The notes beneath the pieces were generated by a model. That model searched no databases. It was given only the letters and a program-made list of their open reading frames with translations, and was not told the DNA's origin. Shown piece after piece: positions 52,895 to 63,291 of a DNA stretch of 64,000 nucleotides; the stretch's first letter is position 1; each line of letters begins with the position of its first letter. Position numbers and translations under genes: made by a program. The DNA comes from Puniceibacterium sp. IMCC21224 (lineage in GTDB: Bacteria; Pseudomonadota; Alphaproteobacteria; Rhodobacterales; Rhodobacteraceae). The stretch is taken from the NCBI RefSeq assembly GCF_001038505.1, contig NZ_LDPY01000001.1, positions 1,302,001-1,366,000 on the forward strand. The letters are read 5' to 3'.

Positions 52895-53359
52895 GTGACG
52901 CGCGAACTCAGACTCAATGGCCAGACCGTCACGGTCGATGCCGAGGACGGAACGCCCCTGCTGTGGGTGATCCGCGATGAACTCAAGATGACTGGAACCA
53001 AGTTCGGCTGCGGCGTCGCTGCCTGTGGGGCCTGCACTGTGCATGTGGATGGTGCGCCGACGCGGTCGTGCCAGACCTATATCGAAGATGTCGAAGGGGC
53101 TGAGATCACAACGATCGAAGCGATGAGCGCCGACCGCATTGGCGCCGCAGTCCAGCAGGCCTGGACCGAACTGGACGTGGTTCAGTGCGGCTACTGCCAG
53201 TCGGGCCAGATCATGTCGGCGGTCGGGCTGTTGTCCGAAAACGGCAAGCCGTCAGCGGCTGAGATTGACGATTACATGTGGGGCAACGCCTGCCGCTGCG
53301 CCACCTATCAACGTATCCGTGCCGGCGTTCAGCGCGCGGCCGAAATTCTGGAGGGTTGA
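52895..53359 (+). CDS. iorA: Molybdenum hydroxylase 2Fe-2S subunit, IorA type
   Basis: This 154-residue electron-transfer subunit of a xanthine-oxidase-family molybdoenzyme binds two 2Fe-2S clusters. The plant-ferredoxin-type cluster is at KFGCGVAACGACTVHVDG with a fourth Cys in RSCQTY; the second is at VQCGYCQSGQI and NACRCATYQRI. The start is GTG (52895), preceded by AAGGAAGGA. One base separates it from iorB. There is no separate FAD subunit, the mark of the isoquinoline 1-oxidoreductase/periplasmic aldehyde oxidase subtype. Confidence 0.91.
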   Translation: MTRELRLNGQTVTVDAEDGTPLLWVIRDELKMTGTKFGCGVAACGACTVHVDGAPTRSCQTYIEDVEGAEITTIEAMSADRIGAAVQQAWTELDVVQCGYCQSGQIMSAVGLLSENGKPSAAEIDDYMWGNACRCATYQRIRAGVQRAAEILEG

Positions 53360-53360
53360 G

Positions 53361-55541
53361 ATGACTGTGAACACATCCCGCCGCGGCTTTCTCAAAGGGG
53401 CTGCCGCTGCCACAGCTGTTCTGCTGATCGGCGCCCGGCCCAACGGTGCGCTTGCCGCCGGTTCTGACGCCACCAATCTTAACCCGTTTGTGCGCATTAG
53501 CGCCGATGGTCGTGTGACCGCCATCGTTAAGCATTTTGAGATGGGGCAGGGGCCGACCACGGGCCTGACCACGCTGATCGCCGAAGAGCTGGGCGTGACG
53601 ATGGACCAGATCGACTATGATTTTGCCCCGTCGAATCCAGCGGTCTATAACAACCTGCTGTTTGGCCAGTTTCAGGGCACCGGCGGATCGACCGCCATGG
53701 CCAACAGCTATGACCAGTACCGCAACGCGGGCGCTGCTGCGCGCGAGATGCTGATTGCGGCGGCGGCGGCGGAATGGGGTACGGATGCCTCGGGCCTTGA
53801 TATTGTCGACGGGCAGATCACCGGCAATGGCCATGCCGCGCCGTTGGCAGAATTTGTCGCGGCCGCCCTGACCCAGGGTGTGCCCGCCGAACCGCGCTTG
53901 CGCACGCCGGATGAATGGCGCCTGATCGGCAAGGAATCCGCCGTCAAGCGCAAGGATACCCCGGTCAAGATCAATGGGTCCGGCATTTTTGCCATGGACC
54001 TACATCTGGACAATCAGATGGTCGTCGTGATCGCCCACGCCCCCCGAATGGGTGCCAAGGTTGCATCGTTCGACGCCAGCGGCGCCGAAGGGATGACGGG
54101 CTTTGTCATGGCAAAGACCCTGCCGGACAACTCTGGCGTCGCGGTCTATGCCGAAGGCACTTGGCAGGCATTGCAGGCCCGCGAAGCGATCACTGTCGAG
54201 TGGGACAATTCCGAGGCTGAGATGCGGTCGTCTGACGTTATCCGCGACGAACTTATCGCCGCCGTTCAGGGTGACAGCACCTATCAGACCAAAGGCGTTC
54301 AAACGGACACGACGGCGTTGGTTGACGGCGCTGCCACAATCATCGACCGGACTTTCTACTTTCCGCTGCTGGCTCACGCCCCGATGGAGCCGCTGACCTG
54401 CACAATCGAAGCCACCGCTGACGGTGGCGCGATCCTGCATGACGGCGCGCAGTTCCCGACATTTGGCCATATGACGCTGAGCCACGTTCTGGACCTTCCA
54501 ATGGAGAAAGTTCAGGTCAAAACCGTACTGGCCGGGGGATCTTTTGGTCGCCGCGCCAATCCGACGTCTGACTACAACCTCGAATGTGCCATGGCCTTTG
54601 CTCTGACGGATCGCAGCCGCCCGGTGAAACTGGTCTGGTCGCGCGAGGATGACATTCGTGGCGGATACTACCGCCCGGCCTTTGCCCATCGTGTGCGGGT
54701 GGGGCTGGACGCCGACGGGCAGATTGTTGGCTGGGATCACCGCATCGCGGGCCAGTCGATCATGAAGGGCACCGTCATGGAGCCTATGACCGTGAAAGAC
54801 GGCGTCGATGGTACGTCGGTCGAAGGGGTGGCGGACACGCCCTATGCCGTGCCGGGGATGTCGGTTGGCCTGACCGACCACGCCAGGGCAACCAGCGTTT
54901 TGTGGTTCCGCTCGGTCGGGCATACCCACACAGCTTATGTGATGGAAAGCATGATGGATATGGTGGCCGAGGAAACCGGCGCCGACCCATTGGAGTTGCG
55001 CCTGTCGATGCTGCCGGGCGACACGCCGGCGCAGACCCGCATGGCTGGTGTGCTGCGCGAGGTGGCCAAACTGGCAGACTGGCAGGCCGGTGCGCCCGAG
55101 GGGCGCGCGCGTGGGCTGGCGGTACACCACTCATTCGGGTCATTCGTGGCCGAGATTGCCGAAGTTTCCGGCGGCGGCGCGGATGCAATCAAGATCGAAA
55201 AGGTCTTTTGCGCTGTCGATTGCGGTGTGGCGGTAAACCCTGATGTGATCCGCGCCCAGATGGAGGGCGGAATCGGTTACGGCATCGGCCATGTCATGCG
55301 CAACCAGATCACGCTCACGGATGGTGAGGTGGATCAGTTCAACTTTCCTGACTACGAACCGTTGCGGATTTCGGATATCGGAGCGATCGAGGTCGCGGTG
55401 GTCAGCTCGACCGACGCGCCAACAGGTGTCGGCGAACCGGGGGTCCCACCGGCTGGACCGGCGCTGGCGAACGCGATTGCCCGCGCAGGCAGCGAGCGTG
55501 TGACCGAACTGCCGATGATGGGTCAGGTCGACTTTGCCTGA
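53361..55541 (+). CDS. iorB: Molybdenum hydroxylase large subunit, IorB type (Tat-exported)
   Basis: This 726-residue molybdopterin-binding subunit pairs with IorA. The N-terminus NTSRRGFLKGAAAATAVLL is a twin-arginine signal, so the complex is exported folded to the periplasm, with IorA carried along. Cofactor and active-site regions include FEMGQGPTTGLTTLIAEELG, TVLAGGSFGRRANPTSDYNL, FRSVGHTHTAYVMES and the catalytic-Glu motif GVGEPGVPPAGPALANAI. The substrate could be a nitrogen heterocycle or an aldehyde; isoquinoline is only the family name. The adjacent AraC gene probably regulates it. Confidence 0.9.
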   Translation: MTVNTSRRGFLKGAAAATAVLLIGARPNGALAAGSDATNLNPFVRISADGRVTAIVKHFEMGQGPTTGLTTLIAEELGVTMDQIDYDFAPSNPAVYNNLLFGQFQGTGGSTAMANSYDQYRNAGAAAREMLIAAAAAEWGTDASGLDIVDGQITGNGHAAPLAEFVAAALTQGVPAEPRLRTPDEWRLIGKESAVKRKDTPVKINGSGIFAMDLHLDNQMVVVIAHAPRMGAKVASFDASGAEGMTGFVMAKTLPDNSGVAVYAEGTWQALQAREAITVEWDNSEAEMRSSDVIRDELIAAVQGDSTYQTKGVQTDTTALVDGAATIIDRTFYFPLLAHAPMEPLTCTIEATADGGAILHDGAQFPTFGHMTLSHVLDLPMEKVQVKTVLAGGSFGRRANPTSDYNLECAMAFALTDRSRPVKLVWSREDDIRGGYYRPAFAHRVRVGLDADGQIVGWDHRIAGQSIMKGTVMEPMTVKDGVDGTSVEGVADTPYAVPGMSVGLTDHARATSVLWFRSVGHTHTAYVMESMMDMVAEETGADPLELRLSMLPGDTPAQTRMAGVLREVAKLADWQAGAPEGRARGLAVHHSFGSFVAEIAEVSGGGADAIKIEKVFCAVDCGVAVNPDVIRAQMEGGIGYGIGHVMRNQITLTDGEVDQFNFPDYEPLRISDIGAIEVAVVSSTDAPTGVGEPGVPPAGPALANAIARAGSERVTELPMMGQVDFA

Positions 55542-55622: not shown

Positions 55623-56006
55623 TTAAACCGCTTTGACAGGAGACAGAAAGCGATAGCTTTCGTTTGCTGCCACCAGGAAGCCTTCGATGATCAGGTCGGA
55701 AATCGACAGGTCATAGTCAGCGGTCCAGTCGCCAGTGGCCTCAATGTCGACAAAGGTCAGAAACGCGTCCATCGTGTCGCAGGACAAATACTCTTCTGAC
55801 GGGGTGACCTCGTAAAACAGCCGCGCATCTGATTCGTCATTGGCAAGCTTGCTGATCAGAGACCGGTCTTTTACCCGCGATTTCCAATGATCAAACCATT
55901 GCTTGCCCTGCCTGCGACGGAACTCTGGCGGAAATGATGTACGCACCTCCGCGAGCAGATCCCAAAGGCCTTGGGCCTCTTTTGATACCAACTCTAACTG
56001 TCCCAT
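55623..56006 (-). CDS. Unknown small acidic protein ending the dynamin/Roadblock locus
   Basis: This 127-residue soluble protein is not recognised. It is rich in acidic and aromatic residues, with a helical N-half (KEAQGLWDLLAEVR; RRRQGKQWFDHWKSRVKDR) and a hydrophobic C-half (DTMDAFLTFVDIEA; ISDLIIEGFLVAANESY). No signal, membrane helix or GTPase motif is seen. ATG 56006 follows a GAGAGA site; upstream in-frame codons would run towards the GTPase-Roadblock gene. It lies 83 bases after that gene in the same direction, so it is probably part of the locus and perhaps an adaptor. Confidence 0.65.
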   Translation of the reverse strand: MGQLELVSKEAQGLWDLLAEVRTSFPPEFRRRQGKQWFDHWKSRVKDRSLISKLANDESDARLFYEVTPSEEYLSCDTMDAFLTFVDIEATGDWTADYDLSISDLIIEGFLVAANESYRFLSPVKAV

Positions 56007-56089
56007 AAACTCTCTCGATTCTGCGCTCTGCTGTTCGTAGTATTTAGCCGTGGGCCATCTGCGTGGCTGACAAGGCGGTGATAAGTATT

Positions 56090-57415
56090 CTAATTGATGG
56101 CTATCGGGGTTTCCTGGCCCATGGCCCCAGCGCAATGGTTGTCCCAGAGATTGCCCATGCGCCTAAGCGCATTTCGTGCGATGCCTGAGTTGATCTTGGC
56201 GGTCTTGCACAGCGCATAGATGACGGTCTTGCCGTCGCCAGATGGCTGATACAGAAAGAAGTGATCCGACAGCGTGATCAGGGTTTGCTCCATCCCGACG
56301 TCGGCACCAGCATAGCGATAGAACTGGCTTTGGTGTTTCAGGCAATCATGACTGGCCCGGCCGGTTGCATGGGCAACGGTTTCGTCACCCGCCAAGACGG
56401 TGCACCGGGAACTGTCTTTTACGTCGATCAGGCCGGATGCGACAATGCTGTTGAGCCCGGACACGAATTCACGCAATTCGGCGGTAACCGCCTCGGTTTC
56501 CAAAGTTCTGGTTTCGTCAACCGGCGGCGCGCTGGCGACCTCTGCCATTGGCGCATCCACTTTGGCAGTGTCTTCCGGGGCTTTGGCCGCTATGGCAGGC
56601 TCTTCGATGACCTCTGCCGCTGATTGTTCGGTGTATTCGTCCATTTCTGGCTCGGGGGTAGCTACTTGGGCGATATCGGGTTCGATCTCGGGGCGCTTGC
56701 GGGATTTTTTGGCATAGTCCGCCACCAGGCCAGACAACATATCACCCTTGGCTATGCTCCAGCTTTCGTCCGAACCGGCGGATGCGTCGATCATGCGTTT
56801 GGAGGCATGCATGAACAGGATGTCCCCGAAAAAATCGGCGGCCTCGGACTCGAGCCGGGATTGGATCTTTTCAATTTCGCGCGCGGATTTCAGTTTATCC
56901 CCACGAGACACCACCAGAATCGAATGTTCGCGCTGAGCCTTGGGAAGGCGGGCAAGGATCGTGCGTTCCGTCAGGCGCCAAGCCTGCGACCCGATGGTCA
57001 CCCAGATCAACAGATCCGCCGCCGCCATCAAGGTAAACGTGTCGTCGCCAAGTTCGCCGTCATGGCTAAAGGGCGCTTCGATCAGTTCGATCCCCGCCAT
57101 ATGCGGCGCATCGGTAAAGATTTCACACAGGTCCGCATCTGCCAGATCTTCGCAATCCTCTACCGCATCAAAGGTCCGGGACGCGCCGGACATATCATGG
57201 ACGATGGCACAGGGTTGCGCGCCGTGACGCACCACAATCATCGGACGTTTGCGTTCACCAAAAAAGCTGGGAACGATGTTCTTGCGAACCAACAAATTGA
57301 TGACGCTGGACTTTCCGGAATTCACTTCGCCGCCAACGACGAGGCTGATCACCGGACTGTCGCCACCTGTGATGGCCTTGACGCCTCGCGGCTTTTGAAG
57401 GAGTGGCGCGTTCAT
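56090..57415 (-). CDS. Small GTPase fused to a Roadblock/LC7 domain
   Basis: This 441-residue two-domain protein has a P-loop at residues 29-37 (GEVNSGKSS), a degenerate G3 (EAPF at 113-116 in place of DxPG), and a G4-like SRGDK at 170-174. A Pro/Ala/Glu-rich linker (~255-325) leads to a C-terminal Roadblock domain (~330-435). That domain aligns by eye with the free Roadblock protein of the same locus: TLITLSDHFFLYQPSGDGKT versus ILITLGQQYHLIRPLSTNSA, then INSGIARNALRRM versus ANLGMARLNVKQC. The GTPase half shares the ADLxIW...QAWR...E stretch with the other small GTPase (59644-60822). It starts ten bases after the second dynamin gene, after AAGGAAAG. Confidence 0.85.
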   Translation of the reverse strand: MNAPLLQKPRGVKAITGGDSPVISLVVGGEVNSGKSSVINLLVRKNIVPSFFGERKRPMIVVRHGAQPCAIVHDMSGASRTFDAVEDCEDLADADLCEIFTDAPHMAGIELIEAPFSHDGELGDDTFTLMAAADLLIWVTIGSQAWRLTERTILARLPKAQREHSILVVSRGDKLKSAREIEKIQSRLESEAADFFGDILFMHASKRMIDASAGSDESWSIAKGDMLSGLVADYAKKSRKRPEIEPDIAQVATPEPEMDEYTEQSAAEVIEEPAIAAKAPEDTAKVDAPMAEVASAPPVDETRTLETEAVTAELREFVSGLNSIVASGLIDVKDSSRCTVLAGDETVAHATGRASHDCLKHQSQFYRYAGADVGMEQTLITLSDHFFLYQPSGDGKTVIYALCKTAKINSGIARNALRRMGNLWDNHCAGAMGQETPIAIN

Positions 57416-57425
57416 TTTCTTTCCT

Positions 57426-59546
57426 TCATGCCGCCTGAGCGAGGGTGTTTTTGGCCAGATGACTGTCGCAAACCGAAACGTGCTGAATGCGACGATCCAG
57501 AATCTCAAGCTGGCTTTGCAGACGGTGCGCCAGGCGGTTCAGGGCATCAGGGTCGGCAGCGAGGCGTTGCACCTGTGCGCGATCGGTTCTGAGACGCTGC
57601 TTGCAATCCTCGACGGTGCTGTCGACCATACGGGGGATGACCTGAAGCCGGGTTTGACCCGCGACGGCCCGTTCGACACATGCCTCACTGAACGCCGCGA
57701 GGATTTTCTGAATCGCCGGACGCAGTTCCGCCGCAGCGATGATGCGCAGCGCATCGAGCGATTTTTCAACATCGATGTTCTTGCGCCGCCAGAATGCCCA
57801 GGATTTGTTGGCGATCAGAACCAGATCCAGCTTTTTCTTGGACAGGGTCAGGGTCGAGACAAATGTATCATTGGGCAGGTTCTGCAAAGTGATGCCATCT
57901 GTGTCGATTTCGAACTTGTCACTGACCGCATTCAGCGAGACGCTCATGAAATTGGACAGCACGACGTCGATCCCGGCCCGCGCCTTGTCAAAGTTCTTTT
58001 TGATGTCCGCTTCGAGGTGCTCACGCAGGGGCAGCAGGTCGATGTTGAGCGTGTTGCTGGCAGCCGAGGCCACAGAGTTGCGGAACACCCGCTCTTTGAT
58101 CCGGTCGCGTTGTTCGTCGATGAACACGCCGATCGATTCATTCAGAGATGCTTCGAGTGAAGCCCAGGATTTGGACACAATCTTGTCGATCTGGGCGTTA
58201 GACGATTCATAGTTTTCGTCGATCCCAACCTGGATACCGCTGAGCGTACCAAGTTCGGCTTCGATGACTTTCAGGGAATCCTCCCAGCGGTCGATATTCA
58301 GTTTCTCGACTTGCATCTGGATCGAGTCGCGCTCGCGCTTTGAGACGAACAGTAAACCACCAATTTCCGAGCGAACGTCTTCGACGATCTGACCAATTTG
58401 CTGGCTGCCGACGCCATGGTCGATCAGGTTGGACATCGTGCGGCGGACGTCTTCCAGACCGGCGGCCGCAAAGAACCGCTCGCGCTGGTCGGTGGGAAGA
58501 CTGCCGGTGATGCTTCTGACATAGTTTGCCAGCCGATCGTCATCCAGTTCGTTGCGAATTTCAGCAGCCTCTTCGTCATCGCGCAGAGCCAGATCGGCAA
58601 GATAGGCGCTGCCGGCATGGATGGTGAATTCGACGTTCGGGATCGCCTCTTTCAGCCGGCTGGCAACGTCTTTTGTGACGCGCTGGATGTCCAGATCATA
58701 GTCGTCCAGCTCATCAATCCGGTTGATGAAAATGACGACATCCTTGGTTTCCTGCTGGGCCAGAATGCGCATCAGCGCGATATCCACCTCGGTCAGGGCC
58801 TGATGCGCGGATAGAACAACGATGAATACGTCGGATTTATCAAGGCTGCGGCAAGTAAATTCGTCGCGCACAAGGAACGGATCATTCACGCCGGGGGTGT
58901 CGGTGATGATCGTCGGCACGGCAAATTCAGGACGGCGGAAATACAGGTTGGCCACCTTGGTGATCGCCGCATAGCGACCCAGCGCGTCGCGCTCGCCCTC
59001 CTGTTCAGAGCTGGGGCCGGCACACACATAGCGTTGCAGCAGATCCGGTGTCAGAAAGTCGTAGTCATGCGACGTGCCGAGCAGGGTGTGGTAATATTTA
59101 CCCAACCGTTTTTGCGCGCGTTCCTTCATTTCTTCGGTTTGCTTGCGCAGCAGATCTGCGTCAAAGCCGGGCAACAGCTGCTCTGTCAGCTTGCGCACTT
59201 CGCTGCCGCCATTGATGATCTCATCCCACGAGTTTTCGTCAAAAAACTCAAAACTCGCGCCGGTTTTGGGATCGTTGGTCAGGTTGATGCGAATGTTGGT
59301 GACCACCGAAGTCCAGGGGTTCACATCAGACGGCAGGAAATTATGCTGACCAAGAAAGGCGTTCAGAAAGGTGGATTTCCCCGCCTTGACCTGACCGATC
59401 ACAGCGACACGCGCGGCCCAGTTGTCCAGCCGTTCGCTGAGGACGGTAAACGGTTCCCGTGCCGCGCGGCCCGCGACACCTTCGAGATCTCCAAGAGTCT
59501 CGCGCAGAAAGTCGATCTCTTTTCTTTGAAGCGTGGCGATTTGCAT
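57426..59546 (-). CDS. Bacterial dynamin-like GTPase, second of the locus
   Basis: This 706-residue large GTPase of the dynamin superfamily has G1 GQVKAGKST (51-59), G2 threonine in DVNPWTSVVT (~74-83), G3 DTPGVND (216-222) and G4 NRID (275-278). A long helical C-half (~370-690) corresponds to the stalk, with a cluster SWAFWRRKN at ~582-590 that may contact membrane. There is no transmembrane helix. AGGAG precedes the ATG. A 97-base gap follows the first small GTPase gene, and ten bases separate it from the GTPase-Roadblock gene. It is a paralogue of the dynamin at 60819-62798, suggesting a hetero-oligomeric pair as in other bacterial dynamin pairs. Confidence 0.87.
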   Translation of the reverse strand: MQIATLQRKEIDFLRETLGDLEGVAGRAAREPFTVLSERLDNWAARVAVIGQVKAGKSTFLNAFLGQHNFLPSDVNPWTSVVTNIRINLTNDPKTGASFEFFDENSWDEIINGGSEVRKLTEQLLPGFDADLLRKQTEEMKERAQKRLGKYYHTLLGTSHDYDFLTPDLLQRYVCAGPSSEQEGERDALGRYAAITKVANLYFRRPEFAVPTIITDTPGVNDPFLVRDEFTCRSLDKSDVFIVVLSAHQALTEVDIALMRILAQQETKDVVIFINRIDELDDYDLDIQRVTKDVASRLKEAIPNVEFTIHAGSAYLADLALRDDEEAAEIRNELDDDRLANYVRSITGSLPTDQRERFFAAAGLEDVRRTMSNLIDHGVGSQQIGQIVEDVRSEIGGLLFVSKRERDSIQMQVEKLNIDRWEDSLKVIEAELGTLSGIQVGIDENYESSNAQIDKIVSKSWASLEASLNESIGVFIDEQRDRIKERVFRNSVASAASNTLNIDLLPLREHLEADIKKNFDKARAGIDVVLSNFMSVSLNAVSDKFEIDTDGITLQNLPNDTFVSTLTLSKKKLDLVLIANKSWAFWRRKNIDVEKSLDALRIIAAAELRPAIQKILAAFSEACVERAVAGQTRLQVIPRMVDSTVEDCKQRLRTDRAQVQRLAADPDALNRLAHRLQSQLEILDRRIQHVSVCDSHLAKNTLAQAA

Positions 59547-59643
59547 TTTTTGCGGCTCCTGAAGTTTTGCTGGCGCTGGCGGGTCGTCGTCTTGTTGGGT
59601 GTGCTTCAGCGGAATAGTTACGGCGGATACGGGTTAAAGTGGT

Positions 59644-60822
59644 TCAGGCCTTGATTTGTCGCGGCACGTTTGCCGCACTGTCGTATTGGTGACCAAAGCC
59701 GTCCTGGTCGTCGATTTCGTGGATCAGAGCATCAACGCTGGCCAGGATCGCGACGGGGTCGGTCATGTCTGTGTCTTGGCTGATGCGGTTCCAGGCAAGC
59801 CGGGCAGGCCCAGCCAGAATGACAGGGGATGCCGACGCAGGTGCCGTAGTCAGCGCCAGAATGGCGGTGTCCGACTTGATCGGCATCGCGATCAGTTTGT
59901 TTTCGTCCAACGGCCCCGAAATCGCCGAGGCGACCTTGCTCTCCAGGTCAAGAAGAGTGCCCGGACGATTGGTTGCAGGACGGTCGCAGAAACTGGCGTG
60001 CTTGGAGGTCTGTGACTTTGGCACAATCCGGCGTGGCTGGATTTGTCCGTCAGACGGTGTTTTTACGTCGGTAGCGGCAATGTCCGTGGGGGCGGTCACC
60101 GCGTTGGGGATGAGGTTCGGCAGGTCATCCTGTTCCGGCGCCAAAGCGCCGGTAAGATCGGCAATTCCGGTCACGTTGCTGATCAGGCGGTCGGCAAATC
60201 CGGCGATGTCATTTGCATCCAGCGCCGACAGCAAATCGAACGAATGGAAGAAATCCTTGGCGTCACGTTCCACACGGCGCAAAACCTTGCCCCTGGAGCG
60301 TTCGTCGGGGATCTGATCGGCATGGGTCAGTACGATGGCGCTGTGTCGTTTCAGCCGATCAGGCATGTCATTCCAGACGGACTTTTCGCTCTGGCGCCAT
60401 GCCTGATTGGCATTGGAACACCAGATCACCAGATCGGCATAGGCGATCATCCGTTCCCAGGATTCGGGTGGAATGTTCGGATCCGAATTGCCGGGGGTGT
60501 CGATAAGGTCAAAATGTTCGAGGATCGGCGCGTCTGAAGGCAACAGGCAATATTTGGTCGTGCTAACCTCGACCTCGGAAATATCGTCGACTGCGTGCCA
60601 CTCTCCGTCCAGATCGAGGCGCATCGGCGATCCGCCGCGCTGCAACAACCACATCGGCGGCAGCGAGGTAGAGGTGACATTGGACGGCAGGACATTCTGC
60701 CCCATCAGCGCATTCAGCAACCGGGTTTTCCCGGCACTAAATTCACCCGCAATCACGATCCGAGGGCGGCGCGTCCGAATGGCATTTTCGATCAAAGTCT
60801 CAGATTTTGTTGTATCCGTCAT
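59644..60822 (-). CDS. Small GTPase, partner of the first dynamin-like protein
   Basis: This 392-residue protein has G1 GEFSAGKTR (26-34), possible G2 residues in NVTSTSLPP, G3 DTPGNSD (108-114) and a G4-like THADQ (166-170). After ~215 residues of GTPase the chain becomes Pro/Ala/Ser-rich and low in conservation, with no clear Roadblock domain. Its segment ADLVIWCSNANQAWRQSEKS matches ADLLIWVTIGSQAWRLTERT of the GTPase-Roadblock protein, so the two are paralogues. Its start overlaps the first dynamin stop (ATGA), implying equimolar production. I infer a regulatory or loading GTPase for the dynamin; the family has no name I recognise. Confidence 0.82.
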   Translation of the reverse strand: MTDTTKSETLIENAIRTRRPRIVIAGEFSAGKTRLLNALMGQNVLPSNVTSTSLPPMWLLQRGGSPMRLDLDGEWHAVDDISEVEVSTTKYCLLPSDAPILEHFDLIDTPGNSDPNIPPESWERMIAYADLVIWCSNANQAWRQSEKSVWNDMPDRLKRHSAIVLTHADQIPDERSRGKVLRRVERDAKDFFHSFDLLSALDANDIAGFADRLISNVTGIADLTGALAPEQDDLPNLIPNAVTAPTDIAATDVKTPSDGQIQPRRIVPKSQTSKHASFCDRPATNRPGTLLDLESKVASAISGPLDENKLIAMPIKSDTAILALTTAPASASPVILAGPARLAWNRISQDTDMTDPVAILASVDALIHEIDDQDGFGHQYDSAANVPRQIKA

Positions 60823-62798
60823 GCGACCTTCTCCTGCTGGGGTCCGGTGTCAAAGAGCAAGTTTGAAGGATCTTGCCTGCCCAAACATTCGAGAATGGTC
60901 TCGACAAATTGGTCTTCGTTCGAGAGGAATTTTTTGATCAGAGCCCGATTGGTTTGGACGTAAACATCGAAATGTTCCTCCAACAACTCGGCAATCAGCG
61001 GGGTGGTTTCGGCGCGGATGACGTCCTCATACCGTTTGGCATGGAGCTTGCGCTTGCCAAACCGCCAGAACCGGCGCCACCAGGTCGGTTGCAAATCTAG
61101 CGAAAGGGTCTGGGCAAGCGTGGTCGGCGGATTGGCGCCGGCAATGACAGGAGCTTCCATATCGGTGCCATGATCTTCGATGCCGAAGTTGTCTTCGAGC
61201 AAGAGATCGTATTCTTCCAGCGCGCGGCTGTGGGCAGATTTGGTATGCTTTCTGACGGTGCCACAGGTCGAAAGAAACGCTGTCCGCATCATCATCCGCA
61301 GGCTGACGGATTCGTAGGACCAGGTGTCAAATTCGCCATACGTCGCGAGATGAGATTCCAGCGCCTCGATCGCCGAAGCAACAAAGGTCTCGCGCGAGCG
61401 CAGCAGCCGTTCCTCGATGACCTTGCGCAAATCGCTGATCTGCTGGTCATAGCGTTCCAGCGTTTCGGTGGCGATATCATCCAGGCGTTTTCTGAGCGCG
61501 GGCAGGTTCAGATTGTCGATACGCTCCTGATCGATCTGCTGGTCGGCAATATTCGACACTGTGCTGATCATTTGCGAGATATTGTCGATTTCCGCCGACA
61601 CGTCTTCGATCAGCAGATGGCCGGGGCCTTCGACGATGCGGGTGGCAATGGCACGGTGCAATTCGCCAACACCGGACGCATCAAAGGCAATCTGGCGAAA
61701 ATCCTGAGGATCTTGGAGATCGCTGTCGGATTTTTCGGCCCAATGCAAAAGAGCGGCGCGGCTGGCGGGCATCATCTTGTCGCACGTGTTGCCAAGGGCG
61801 CAGTTGGCCCAATAGCCTGAGCCGAAAATGATCTTTACGCCCTCGGCGACGCCGTTCTTGGCCAGCGTATTCTTGATGCTTTCGTAAATCTTGATTGAAT
61901 CGCCGCGCGGGTCCACCAGGGTGTCGATCCGGTTGACAAAAATCAGGACTTCGCGGGCCTGCACGTTGCAGATGATGCGCATCAGCGCCATGTCCATCGT
62001 CGACAGCGCCTGATGGGCTGACAGCACAACAACGCAGACGCGGCTGTCGCTGATCGCATTCAGCGTGATCTGTTCGCGCATCATGAAGGTGTCGTTCACG
62101 CCGGGTGTATCGCGGAAACACAGGCCCGTCGGATAGGTCGGAATGTCGATATAAAGGTCTGCCAGTTTGGTGATGTCGGCATAGACACCTTCGTCTGGCG
62201 TGTCCGAATCGTCGGGATCACCATAGCAGATATAGCGGTCGATGACGTCCTTTTCTATGGTTTCGAACGCGTGGCTCGCCCCAAGAAGGTCGTGAAATTT
62301 GTCACCAAGACGCTGTTCCGTGGTCTGGCGCATCTCCATGACCTGGTTCTTGACGGCGACCGCTTCGGTTTCAAATCCGGCGCGGTTGGCCATTTCACCA
62401 AGTCGACCGCCGGTGGTCACCAAGCGATCCCATTCCATTTCATCGAAGAAACGGAACAATGCGCTGGTCTTTGGCGGGCGGCGACGGGAATTCAGGTGGA
62501 TCGCGGTGATGACCGAGGTCCAGGGATTGACGTCCGAGGGCAGCAACTCGGTCTGACCGATCAAAGCATTCAACAATGTGCTCTTGCCAGCCTTGACCTG
62601 GCCGATCACGCTGACCGCCGGTTCAAAGGAAACGATCTTTTCGGAAATGTTTTCAACCGCTTCCTGTACAAACGGAAGCGAACTTTCGGCCAGTGCCTCG
62701 GTCGCTCTTTCGACACGCTGAAGGCGTTGCCAAAATTCTTCCAATTGGGCAAAGCCGCCCTTCCCAAACAACGCAAAAGATTCGTCTTCAGAGAACAT
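60819..62798 (-). CDS. Bacterial dynamin-like GTPase, first of the locus
   Basis: This 659-residue dynamin-superfamily GTPase has G1 GQVKAGKST (66-74), G2 in DVNPWTSVIT (~89-98), G3 DTPGVND (230-236) and G4 NRID (289-292), with a conserved VVLSAHQAL after G3 shared with its paralogue. The C-half (~390-650) is largely helical. An aromatic-basic patch WWRRFWRFGKRK lies at 573-584, almost the same distance along the chain as SWAFWRRKN in the other dynamin, and could be the membrane-binding tip. It lies 136 bases after the free Roadblock gene and is coupled by ATGA to the small GTPase gene. The ribosome site before the ATG is weak. Confidence 0.88.
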   Translation of the reverse strand: MFSEDESFALFGKGGFAQLEEFWQRLQRVERATEALAESSLPFVQEAVENISEKIVSFEPAVSVIGQVKAGKSTLLNALIGQTELLPSDVNPWTSVITAIHLNSRRRPPKTSALFRFFDEMEWDRLVTTGGRLGEMANRAGFETEAVAVKNQVMEMRQTTEQRLGDKFHDLLGASHAFETIEKDVIDRYICYGDPDDSDTPDEGVYADITKLADLYIDIPTYPTGLCFRDTPGVNDTFMMREQITLNAISDSRVCVVVLSAHQALSTMDMALMRIICNVQAREVLIFVNRIDTLVDPRGDSIKIYESIKNTLAKNGVAEGVKIIFGSGYWANCALGNTCDKMMPASRAALLHWAEKSDSDLQDPQDFRQIAFDASGVGELHRAIATRIVEGPGHLLIEDVSAEIDNISQMISTVSNIADQQIDQERIDNLNLPALRKRLDDIATETLERYDQQISDLRKVIEERLLRSRETFVASAIEALESHLATYGEFDTWSYESVSLRMMMRTAFLSTCGTVRKHTKSAHSRALEEYDLLLEDNFGIEDHGTDMEAPVIAGANPPTTLAQTLSLDLQPTWWRRFWRFGKRKLHAKRYEDVIRAETTPLIAELLEEHFDVYVQTNRALIKKFLSNEDQFVETILECLGRQDPSNLLFDTGPQQEKVA

Positions 62799-62838
62799 AT
62801 TGTTACTCGCAAACTAGTTTGGTTCGAGTGCGCGGGGT

Positions 62839-62877
62839 GTTGCGAGGCGGCGGCAATTTTTGGCGCCGCTTCGCAAC
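62839..62877. promoter_or_regulatory. GC-rich hairpin between the Roadblock gene and the first dynamin gene
   Basis: Arms 62839-62852 and 62864-62877 can pair over 14 positions with one mismatch or wobble, around an 11-base loop. There is no T-run on the transcribed strand. It may act as an attenuator or protect a short Roadblock mRNA, giving more Roadblock than dynamin. Confidence 0.5.
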
Positions 62878-62934
62878 CTCCGGCAGTTTCAGATCACACC
62901 TCATCGGTCCGAAGGTTGATCAGTCTCAGCAGGC

Positions 62935-63291
62935 TCAGACTTCGAGGGTCGCTTCGCACTGCTTCACGTTCAAACGCGCCATACCAAGGTTCGCCTGCTT
63001 CTTGTCCAGAGCAACATAGAGGAAGATGGCACTGTTGGTCGAAAGCGGGCGGATCAGGTGATACTGCTGGCCGAGGGTGATCAGGATGTCTTCGATCGAG
63101 TCTTTCAGGCCCAGGGCCTTCATCGCGGCGTTCTTGGCACGTACCACTTCGGTGTTTGCTGCACCGGCGGCTTCGAGATCCAGTTTGCCAGTGCCCGCTT
63201 CGGACGCCAGCATCAGGCCGGATTCGCTGTCTACGAGGCAAGCGCCAATAAAGCCGGGGATGTTGTTCAGGTTCGAGATATCAGTTGTCAT
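62935..63291 (-). CDS. Free-standing Roadblock/LC7 domain protein
   Basis: This 118-residue cytosolic protein is a single Roadblock fold: NNIPGFIGACLVDSESGLML (first strands), EVVRAKNAAMKALGLKD (long helix) and DILITLGQQYHLIRPL followed by IFLYVALDKKQANLGMARL. Roadblock dimers of the MglB type act on small Ras-like GTPases, and here the locus encodes four GTPases. ATG 63291 was chosen because it starts the fold and follows GGAG at fair spacing; the upstream in-frame extension has no ribosome site. It is the first gene of the leftward locus. Confidence 0.88.
   Translation of the reverse strand: MTTDISNLNNIPGFIGACLVDSESGLMLASEAGTGKLDLEAAGAANTEVVRAKNAAMKALGLKDSIEDILITLGQQYHLIRPLSTNSAIFLYVALDKKQANLGMARLNVKQCEATLEV

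Follow-up and report, generated by a model that had tools for sequence, protein, structure and literature searches.

Organization of the locus

The window analysed here, a 64,000-nucleotide stretch of the genome of Puniceibacterium sp. IMCC21224 (contig NZ_LDPY01000001.1, positions 1,302,001 to 1,366,000), contains a leftward run of six genes at 55623..63291, five of which, A to E, encode two dynamin-like proteins, two short dynamin-family GTPases and Roadblock-type domains. All six genes had been listed in a preliminary description of this DNA and are present at the positions given there; gene calls were made with an in-house gene caller. Gene A (62935..63291, minus strand, as are all the genes of the run) encodes a free Roadblock/LC7-type protein of 118 residues, and gene B (60819..62798) encodes dynamin-like protein 1, a BDLP-type protein of 659 residues. 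Gene C (59644..60822) encodes a short dynamin-family GTPase of 392 residues in which G1, G3 and G4 are present, gene D (57426..59546) dynamin-like protein 2 of 706 residues, and gene E (56090..57415) a short GTPase of 441 residues that has lost G3 and carries a Roadblock domain fused at its C-terminus. The start of C lies over the end of B, the overlap being 4 bp; the gaps between the remaining neighbours are 10 bp (D-E), 97 bp (C-D), 136 bp (A-B) and 83 bp (E-F). Matches to Pfam Dynamin_N above the curated cut-off were obtained with B (E 4e-15), D (1e-16), C (1e-11) and E (2e-7), which bore out the earlier identification of B and D as two dynamin-like GTPases; the Pfam scan of A and F gave no match. 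Searching the window genome with B found B and D alone, and searching it with Dynamin_N found B, D, C and E plus two other places, which we take to be housekeeping GTPases. The best explanation of this gene set, which we hold tentatively, is a GTP-driven, switch-controlled two-dynamin membrane machine at the cytoplasmic face of the inner membrane.

Conservation of the gene order

Gene order was compared among 77 loci, which came from the best 80 of at least 550 relatives picked by dynamin similarity, and shares among these loci are not frequencies. The order A-B-C-D-E was kept together with the strand in 12 of the 77 loci (tblastn), so the order seen in the window is indeed shared by relatives, and B-C-D-E without A detected just before it was found in 14 more; all of these loci belong to Rhodobacterales. 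Thioclava and Tropicibacter are named relatives with the window-type order, and Ruegeria and Leisingera have kinase-linked layouts. In Neomegalonema the layout was a g0- or C-like GTPase followed by B-C-Roadblock-x-D-E-x164. The 77 loci came mostly from Roseobacteraceae, Paracoccaceae and Neomegalonema (all Rhodobacterales), with a few from Hyphomicrobiaceae, Hyphomonadaceae and metagenome-assembled genomes of Rhizobiales. One record, L114, is named Oceanobacillus sp. HTM 045, but its locus is Rhodobacteraceae-like and the record may be misnamed or contaminated.

Relatives of B occurred in 38 of 149 family genomes (E 1e-3, counting the window genome itself), with 35 of these matching at E 1e-60 or better, and relatives of D in 60 of 149 order genomes (E 1e-20), six of which, again including the window genome, lay below 1e-200. 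Outside the family, dynamin relatives were rare. The class-wide scan found them in two of 385 genomes, the window's own and one of the same family, and the phylum-wide scan found relatives of C in nine of 398 genomes, eight of them the window's own or of the same family; these scans scored at most three and at most four candidates per genome, respectively, and may have missed relatives. B relatives were also carried by 18 plasmids (12 of Leisingera, five of Ruegeria and one of Rhodobacter), where they were annotated as 'dynamin family protein', and in two plasmid regions the gene at the Roadblock position was annotated as hypothetical.

Structural features of the dynamin-like proteins

The structural model of B was a full-length BDLP-type dynamin with a long helical stalk, and its fold matches extended over nearly the full length. 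A Trp/Arg-rich motif at residues 568-580 (DLQPTWWRRFWRF; 61059..61097, minus strand) lies at the predicted stalk tip between the long helices 498-538 and 583-640. W574 was invariant among 35 aligned B proteins, with W573 and W578 conserved in at least 90% of them, and the commonest forms of the motif were tallied across 84 B relatives. The position of the motif resembles that of the membrane paddle in BDLP, and the tip of B may insert into the membrane. For D, the PDB sequence search matched BDLP (2j68, E 2e-9), a likeness that rests on sequence. The G3 motif DTPG was intact in 84 of 84 B relatives and 72 of 72 D relatives. Identity to the window B in the kinase-free Rhodobacteraceae-type loci was 48-61%.

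In the tree, B and D formed two old clades of similar branching, and the window grouped with L078 and L083 in both. The tree was made by a quick method, omitted 17 near-duplicate loci, included 11 of the 38 loci L032-L069 and has long branches; four rows labelled B (L032, L033, L041 and L122) fell outside its main B clade. The genes for each dynamin and its short GTPase are adjacent, and after the twice-fetched loci L034, L045, L050, L051 and L052 had been removed, 4-bp overlaps were counted in 25 of 78 B-C pairs and 34 of 66 D-GTPase pairs.

The fold matches of B included LeoA (4aur, E 4e-6), as would suit an aid to secretion or vesicle release comparable to LeoABC of enterotoxigenic E. coli. 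According to passages of PMC4159319, the LeoA gene is accompanied by that of a second dynamin, which is split, and vesicle cargo falls to about half upon deletion; weak, partial PADLOC matches of B, C and D to LeoA/LeoBC (19-40 bits) pointed in the same direction. LeoC, however, is a split-off dynamin part, while in the present locus both dynamins are whole and C and E are additional GTPases, and the word roadblock is not found in the main text of PMC4159319. We consider a LeoABC-like role quite unlikely.

The short GTPases C and E

C and E had been described as small GTPases. Because Pfam Dynamin_N matched both and the predicted fold of E was dynamin-type, they are, as judged from their sequences, short GTPases of the dynamin superfamily and not of the Ras/MglA type. 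Dynamin_N was the best fit in 28 of 28 E-type members, and C scored 21 bits against the small_GTP model, whose cut-off is 42.5. C and E also have a signature after G3 in common, mostly W[RK]..E, with Ser or Thr before the Glu.

The two proteins differ at G3. Among the relatives of C, 89 of 92 had D..G at this position, and two of the three exceptions sit upstream of B, in the slot held elsewhere by the short GTPase g0. The G domain of E (residues 17-245; 56681..57367, minus strand) keeps G1 (GEVNSGKS) and G4 (SRGD) and has EAPF instead of D..G at G3. The GTPase motif sets are therefore not all complete, as they had been taken to be in the preliminary description. D..G was found in one of 39 E relatives, Glu replaced the G3 Asp in 37 of the 39, and G1 and G4 remained recognisable. 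By these motifs, C is the intact short GTPase of the window type and E the one without G3. Having lost G3, E is expected to hydrolyse GTP poorly or not at all, and it probably still binds nucleotide. In the kinase-linked single-dynamin layout, the g0 proteins lack D.PG and often have Glu there, which resembles the window type. Among the 52 g0-type proteins, 20 had a P-loop but no D.PG, 11 had no standard P-loop, and L126 had another D..G-like spot.

The model of E (predicted local distance difference test score, pLDDT, 83.7; predicted TM-score, pTM, 0.61) showed a G domain of the dynamin type and, C-terminal to it, a Roadblock domain; the VIA rows for E covered residues 16-246 alone. With Foldseek, BDLP was the closest match (8e-11), and the two-domain Rag/Gtr proteins followed at 9.5e-8 to 1.2e-6. 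The alignments with Rag/Gtr chains spanned 418-437 columns including gaps, with TM-scores of 0.22-0.26 by query length and a root-mean-square deviation of about 22, so E matches Rag in the order of its domains and not in their placement. Like E, the Rag/Gtr proteins, which act with Ragulator, have a G domain and then a C-terminal Roadblock domain in one chain, but their G domain belongs to the Ras superfamily while that of E is dynamin-type with G3 lost. Convergence is likelier than common descent as the source of this likeness. The joining of a dynamin G domain to a Roadblock tail also suggests that the Rag domain arrangement can arise from another family of GTPases.

The Roadblock domains

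Two Roadblock domains had been claimed for the locus. The one in E (residues 301-431; 56123..56515, minus strand) was modelled with the element order H-E-E-H-E-E-E-H, its block having pLDDT values mostly above 90, and the E tails aligned to A by hhalign with a probability of 95 (E 1.7e-8). For A the claim holds through this alignment and through Robl_LC7, which was matched by three of the 16 members of the A alignment (A and 15 relatives; best E 5e-4); the window A, which had no Pfam match of its own, was not among the three. A was 68-81% identical to 14 of its 15 aligned relatives and 48% to the remaining one, and E was 22-39% identical to its relatives. A was thus the best conserved of the compared proteins, whose sets differ, as would suit a scaffold with many contacts.

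In kinase-linked layouts a further protein, x262 (about 244-319 residues; L036:11072-11866, L128:9082-9930 and others), is conserved after the Roadblock gene. It was considered as a second Roadblock protein and rejected, as no Roadblock profile matched it; x262 was not seen in the window type, and the L036 copy had no Pfam match. In L114 (genome G004), two free Roadblock genes lie beside a D-E pair whose E has a third Roadblock domain.

Kinase, FHA and PP2C genes in related loci

A kinase-like gene, mostly together with FHA and PP2C genes, was present in 30 of the 77 loci, and this cassette was not found in the window type. Among the family loci L032-L069, the order Kinase-FHA-PP2C-g0-B-C occurred in 16 of 38, and PP2C-GTPase-B-C was present in six of the 77 loci, usually with a Roadblock gene after it. 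The order D-GTPase-kinase occurred in 21 of the 77, in each case after x137-B-C-Roadblock-x262; these loci came from Ruegeria, Aliiroseovarius and one metagenome-assembled genome of Alphaproteobacteria, and FHA and PP2C genes followed in most of them. In L105, an A-type Roadblock gene, FHA, PP2C, kinase, D and E lie together in one stretch. The domain types were seen by Pfam in one cluster (Pkinase 8e-34, PP2C_2 5e-10 and an FHA-like Yop-YscD_cpl match below its cut-off), and NCBI annotation of Ruegeria and Leisingera plasmids also listed kinase, FHA and PP2C. Of 47 kinases, 28 probably have a transmembrane helix as judged by hydropathy, and these are mainly long forms of the Ruegeria type. 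A single distant relative of the cluster kinase (28% identity) is present in the window genome, about 14 kb from the VipB gene and about 1.3 Mb from the locus.

The presence of these genes in the clusters of relatives speaks for a GTP-sensing signalling module, in which the dynamins would be GTP-dependent oligomeric switches acting on a membrane signalling protein. Such a case is RdcA-RdcB of E. coli (YjdA/CrfC-YjcZ), where a soluble dynamin-like GTPase and its partner, encoded in one operon, activate the diguanylate cyclase DgcE, as passages of PMC6510439 describe. Against the RdcA/CrfC model PRK09866, B scored 30.0 bits and D 20.6 bits, with a cut-off of 1146, and the weak B match agrees with such a module. 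Yet RdcA-RdcB pairs a single dynamin with a single partner, the model of B is that of a whole BDLP-type dynamin, stalk and Trp-rich tip included, and two dynamins are kept together here as in known dynamin pairs. A signalling module of this kind is judged unlikely.

The phosphorylation pathway of the type VI secretion system (T6SS) also uses a kinase, an FHA protein and a PP2C phosphatase. The same three domain types in the relatives, together with the T6SS sheath gene VipB in eight of 20 genomes, the window's included, would fit a T6SS accessory. VipB, however, was absent from the other 12 of these 20 cluster-holding genomes, all 12 of which have the cluster PP2C and 11 the kinase in the fetched stretches, and the VipB gene of the window genome lies about 1.29 Mb from the locus. 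On these grounds a T6SS accessory was rejected as very improbable. In the window genome, VipB and a Ser/Thr-kinase-like stretch lie about 14 kb apart at C1:71550-72455 and C1:86212-86880; the aligned reading of the kinase-like stretch contains one TAG.

Proposed mechanism and comparison with known systems

The two-dynamin membrane machine remains the reading that we prefer. The domain types, the G3 pattern of the four GTPases, the two similarly branching clades of B and D, the adjacency of dynamin and short-GTPase genes and the kinase, FHA and PP2C genes in the clusters of relatives speak for it; in addition, A-B-C-D-E or B-C-D-E is kept while the flanks differ, except among near relatives and for x110 and F (described below). 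In the mechanism that we infer, B and D would act together as BDLP-type dynamins whose stalk tips reach into the bilayer, B by way of its Trp-rich tip. C and E would form a switch that docks on A through the Roadblock tail of E and sets when and where B and D assemble, as Roadblock proteins do with Rag or MglA GTPases. In the relatives, the Ser/Thr kinase, the FHA protein and the PP2C phosphatase appear to supply the input, which in the window type would have to come from elsewhere. The preliminary description had proposed a self-contained switch-plus-remodelling machine. The switch and the remodelling are retained here as the best reading; the machine is not always self-contained, given the kinase-like gene in 30 of the 77 loci. 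The most likely purpose would be membrane repair, an envelope-stress response or vesicle release.

Several observations weigh against this mechanism. The B and D proteins of the window have no strong hydrophobic segment, their Kyte-Doolittle maxima being 1.44 and 1.59. Twenty D-partner short GTPases of the Ruegeria/Aliiroseovarius layout, among the 52 of g0 type, keep DLPG and the P-loop, which rules out a loss of G3 in all g0-type GTPases; the asymmetry between a competent and a degenerate short GTPase thus does not hold everywhere, both short GTPases being intact in Ruegeria-type relatives. The short E proteins of Neomegalonema (about 245 residues) have no Roadblock tail. A was not detected in the 14 B-C-D-E loci, L078 and L083 included; in the Seohaeicola genome of L078, a relative of A is present in another dynamin locus. 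No Roadblock structure was found in the PDB sequence search with A or with its alignment. Between the window A and the free Roadblock proteins of kinase-linked layouts, the direct hhalign match was weak (probability 13, E 0.002), and the two are connected by way of the E tails (probability 94-95) and of an iterated A profile, which was domain-trimmed and may have absorbed its own members. None of ten kinase-linked Roadblock proteins matched Robl_LC7, which makes their identification less certain than that of A, and one of them gave an insignificant match (E 0.11) to MAPKK1_Int, a Ragulator Roadblock family.

The closest likeness among known systems is to tandem bacterial dynamins (BDLP, the 5owv/5oxf pair, DynA, IniA and LeoABC). 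As in these, two dynamin-type proteins are encoded together, a dynamin G domain with its motifs is present in both B and D, and B has a BDLP-like fold and stalk. Here, in contrast, a short dynamin-family GTPase comes after each dynamin, and Roadblock proteins are added; the set of dynamin, short GTPase and Roadblock protein was not seen in the tandem-dynamin passages, the abstract and the structure titles compared. MglA-MglB and the actinobacterial conservons resemble the locus in that a Roadblock protein is encoded with a short GTPase. That GTPase is Ras-like, whereas the GTPases here are of the dynamin family and stand beside two large dynamins, and one Roadblock domain is fused. No description of the gene set was found among the papers listed in searches of the open-licence full texts of PMC, the scope within which the preliminary suggestion of an undescribed system stood, subscription papers lying outside it. 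The portions of PMC7159879 consulted contain neither 'dynamin' nor 'roadblock', and those of PMC4316618 do not contain 'dynamin'.

A bolder form of the two-dynamin machine, which we consider somewhat unlikely, would be a Rag/Ragulator-like control layer that Alphaproteobacteria built from dynamin-family parts. The two dynamins would be licensed by two short GTPases seated on a Roadblock scaffold, in the window type a competent one and a degenerate one with a Roadblock tail, and in many relatives the Ser/Thr kinase with FHA and PP2C would act as the gate. If true, bacteria would have phosphorylation- and GTPase-controlled membrane remodelling of eukaryote-like logic. To our knowledge, the control of bacterial dynamins is largely open. 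Since the dynamins are accompanied here by candidate regulators in a conserved order, their regulation becomes testable in culturable relatives.

Flanking genes and gene F

Phage defence had been among the roles suggested for the locus. An anti-phage defence or conflict system, for example one delaying lysis through membrane support like DynA of B. subtilis, would agree with the patchy distribution of B relatives (38 of 149 family genomes) and the variable flanks. DynA delays phage lysis according to the abstract of PMC8844932, a kinase and PP2C stand beside some actinobacterial GTPase-centred conflict systems in a passage of PMC7159879, and phage defence by a kinase-kinase-phosphatase prophage module is reported (PMC11341870). 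Furthermore, the gene just past the window end (C1 1366151-1367290, window scale 64151-65290, plus strand, divergent) presumably encodes an XRE-ImmA/IrrE-type regulator, to judge by the HEYAH motif and the N-terminal part, and visibly similar regulator-like genes lie near L078 (Seohaeicola) and L083 (Pseudooceanicola).

The flanks, however, gave defence little support. Among 100 flank genes of 14 loci, the commonest Pfam families belonged to transport and metabolism, as would be expected of a portable unit more than of a defence island. The 18 PADLOC family matches at E 1e-8 in these genes (mad3 with seven members, mad8 with five, AriA with two and one, and three singles) were read mainly as ABC/AAA ATPase look-alikes, because Pfam found ABC_tran in seven and AAA_21 in three genes of the same set; the matches were counted per set and not assigned to individual genes. 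A defence island was rejected on this basis. No clear PADLOC system was found among the six proteins, with no match for A and E and 11.5 bits to a restriction-enzyme model for F. No phage record matched D, and a phage origin was likewise set aside. A role in defence is judged quite unlikely, and the two-dynamin membrane machine accounts better for the locus.

Gene F (55623..56006, minus strand) encodes a small protein of 127 residues and is probably an accessory neighbour and not a core gene. The preliminary description had counted it as part of the unit, but it was not in the conserved unit among the loci examined. Its relatives were found at L078 and L083 alone among the fetched loci, on the opposite strand, no genome-wide search for F having been made. 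A different protein, x110, usually of about 77-121 residues and with the motifs HDGKGCP, SSW.W and RYR.K.P.GL, lies nearby in 12 loci; it follows E in the window-type loci L079, L080, L081, L082, L085, L089, L099 and L117, in the place where the window has F. Similar genes in the flanks of 24 loci (219 genes, the window included) were grouped, and of the 15 largest groups the biggest were ABC-transporter ATPases and x110; the others were mostly common to near relatives alone. On the other side of F, two genes at 52895-55541 on the plus strand are convergent with the locus and presumably encode a small iron-sulphur subunit and a large Tat-signal molybdenum-hydroxylase-like subunit.

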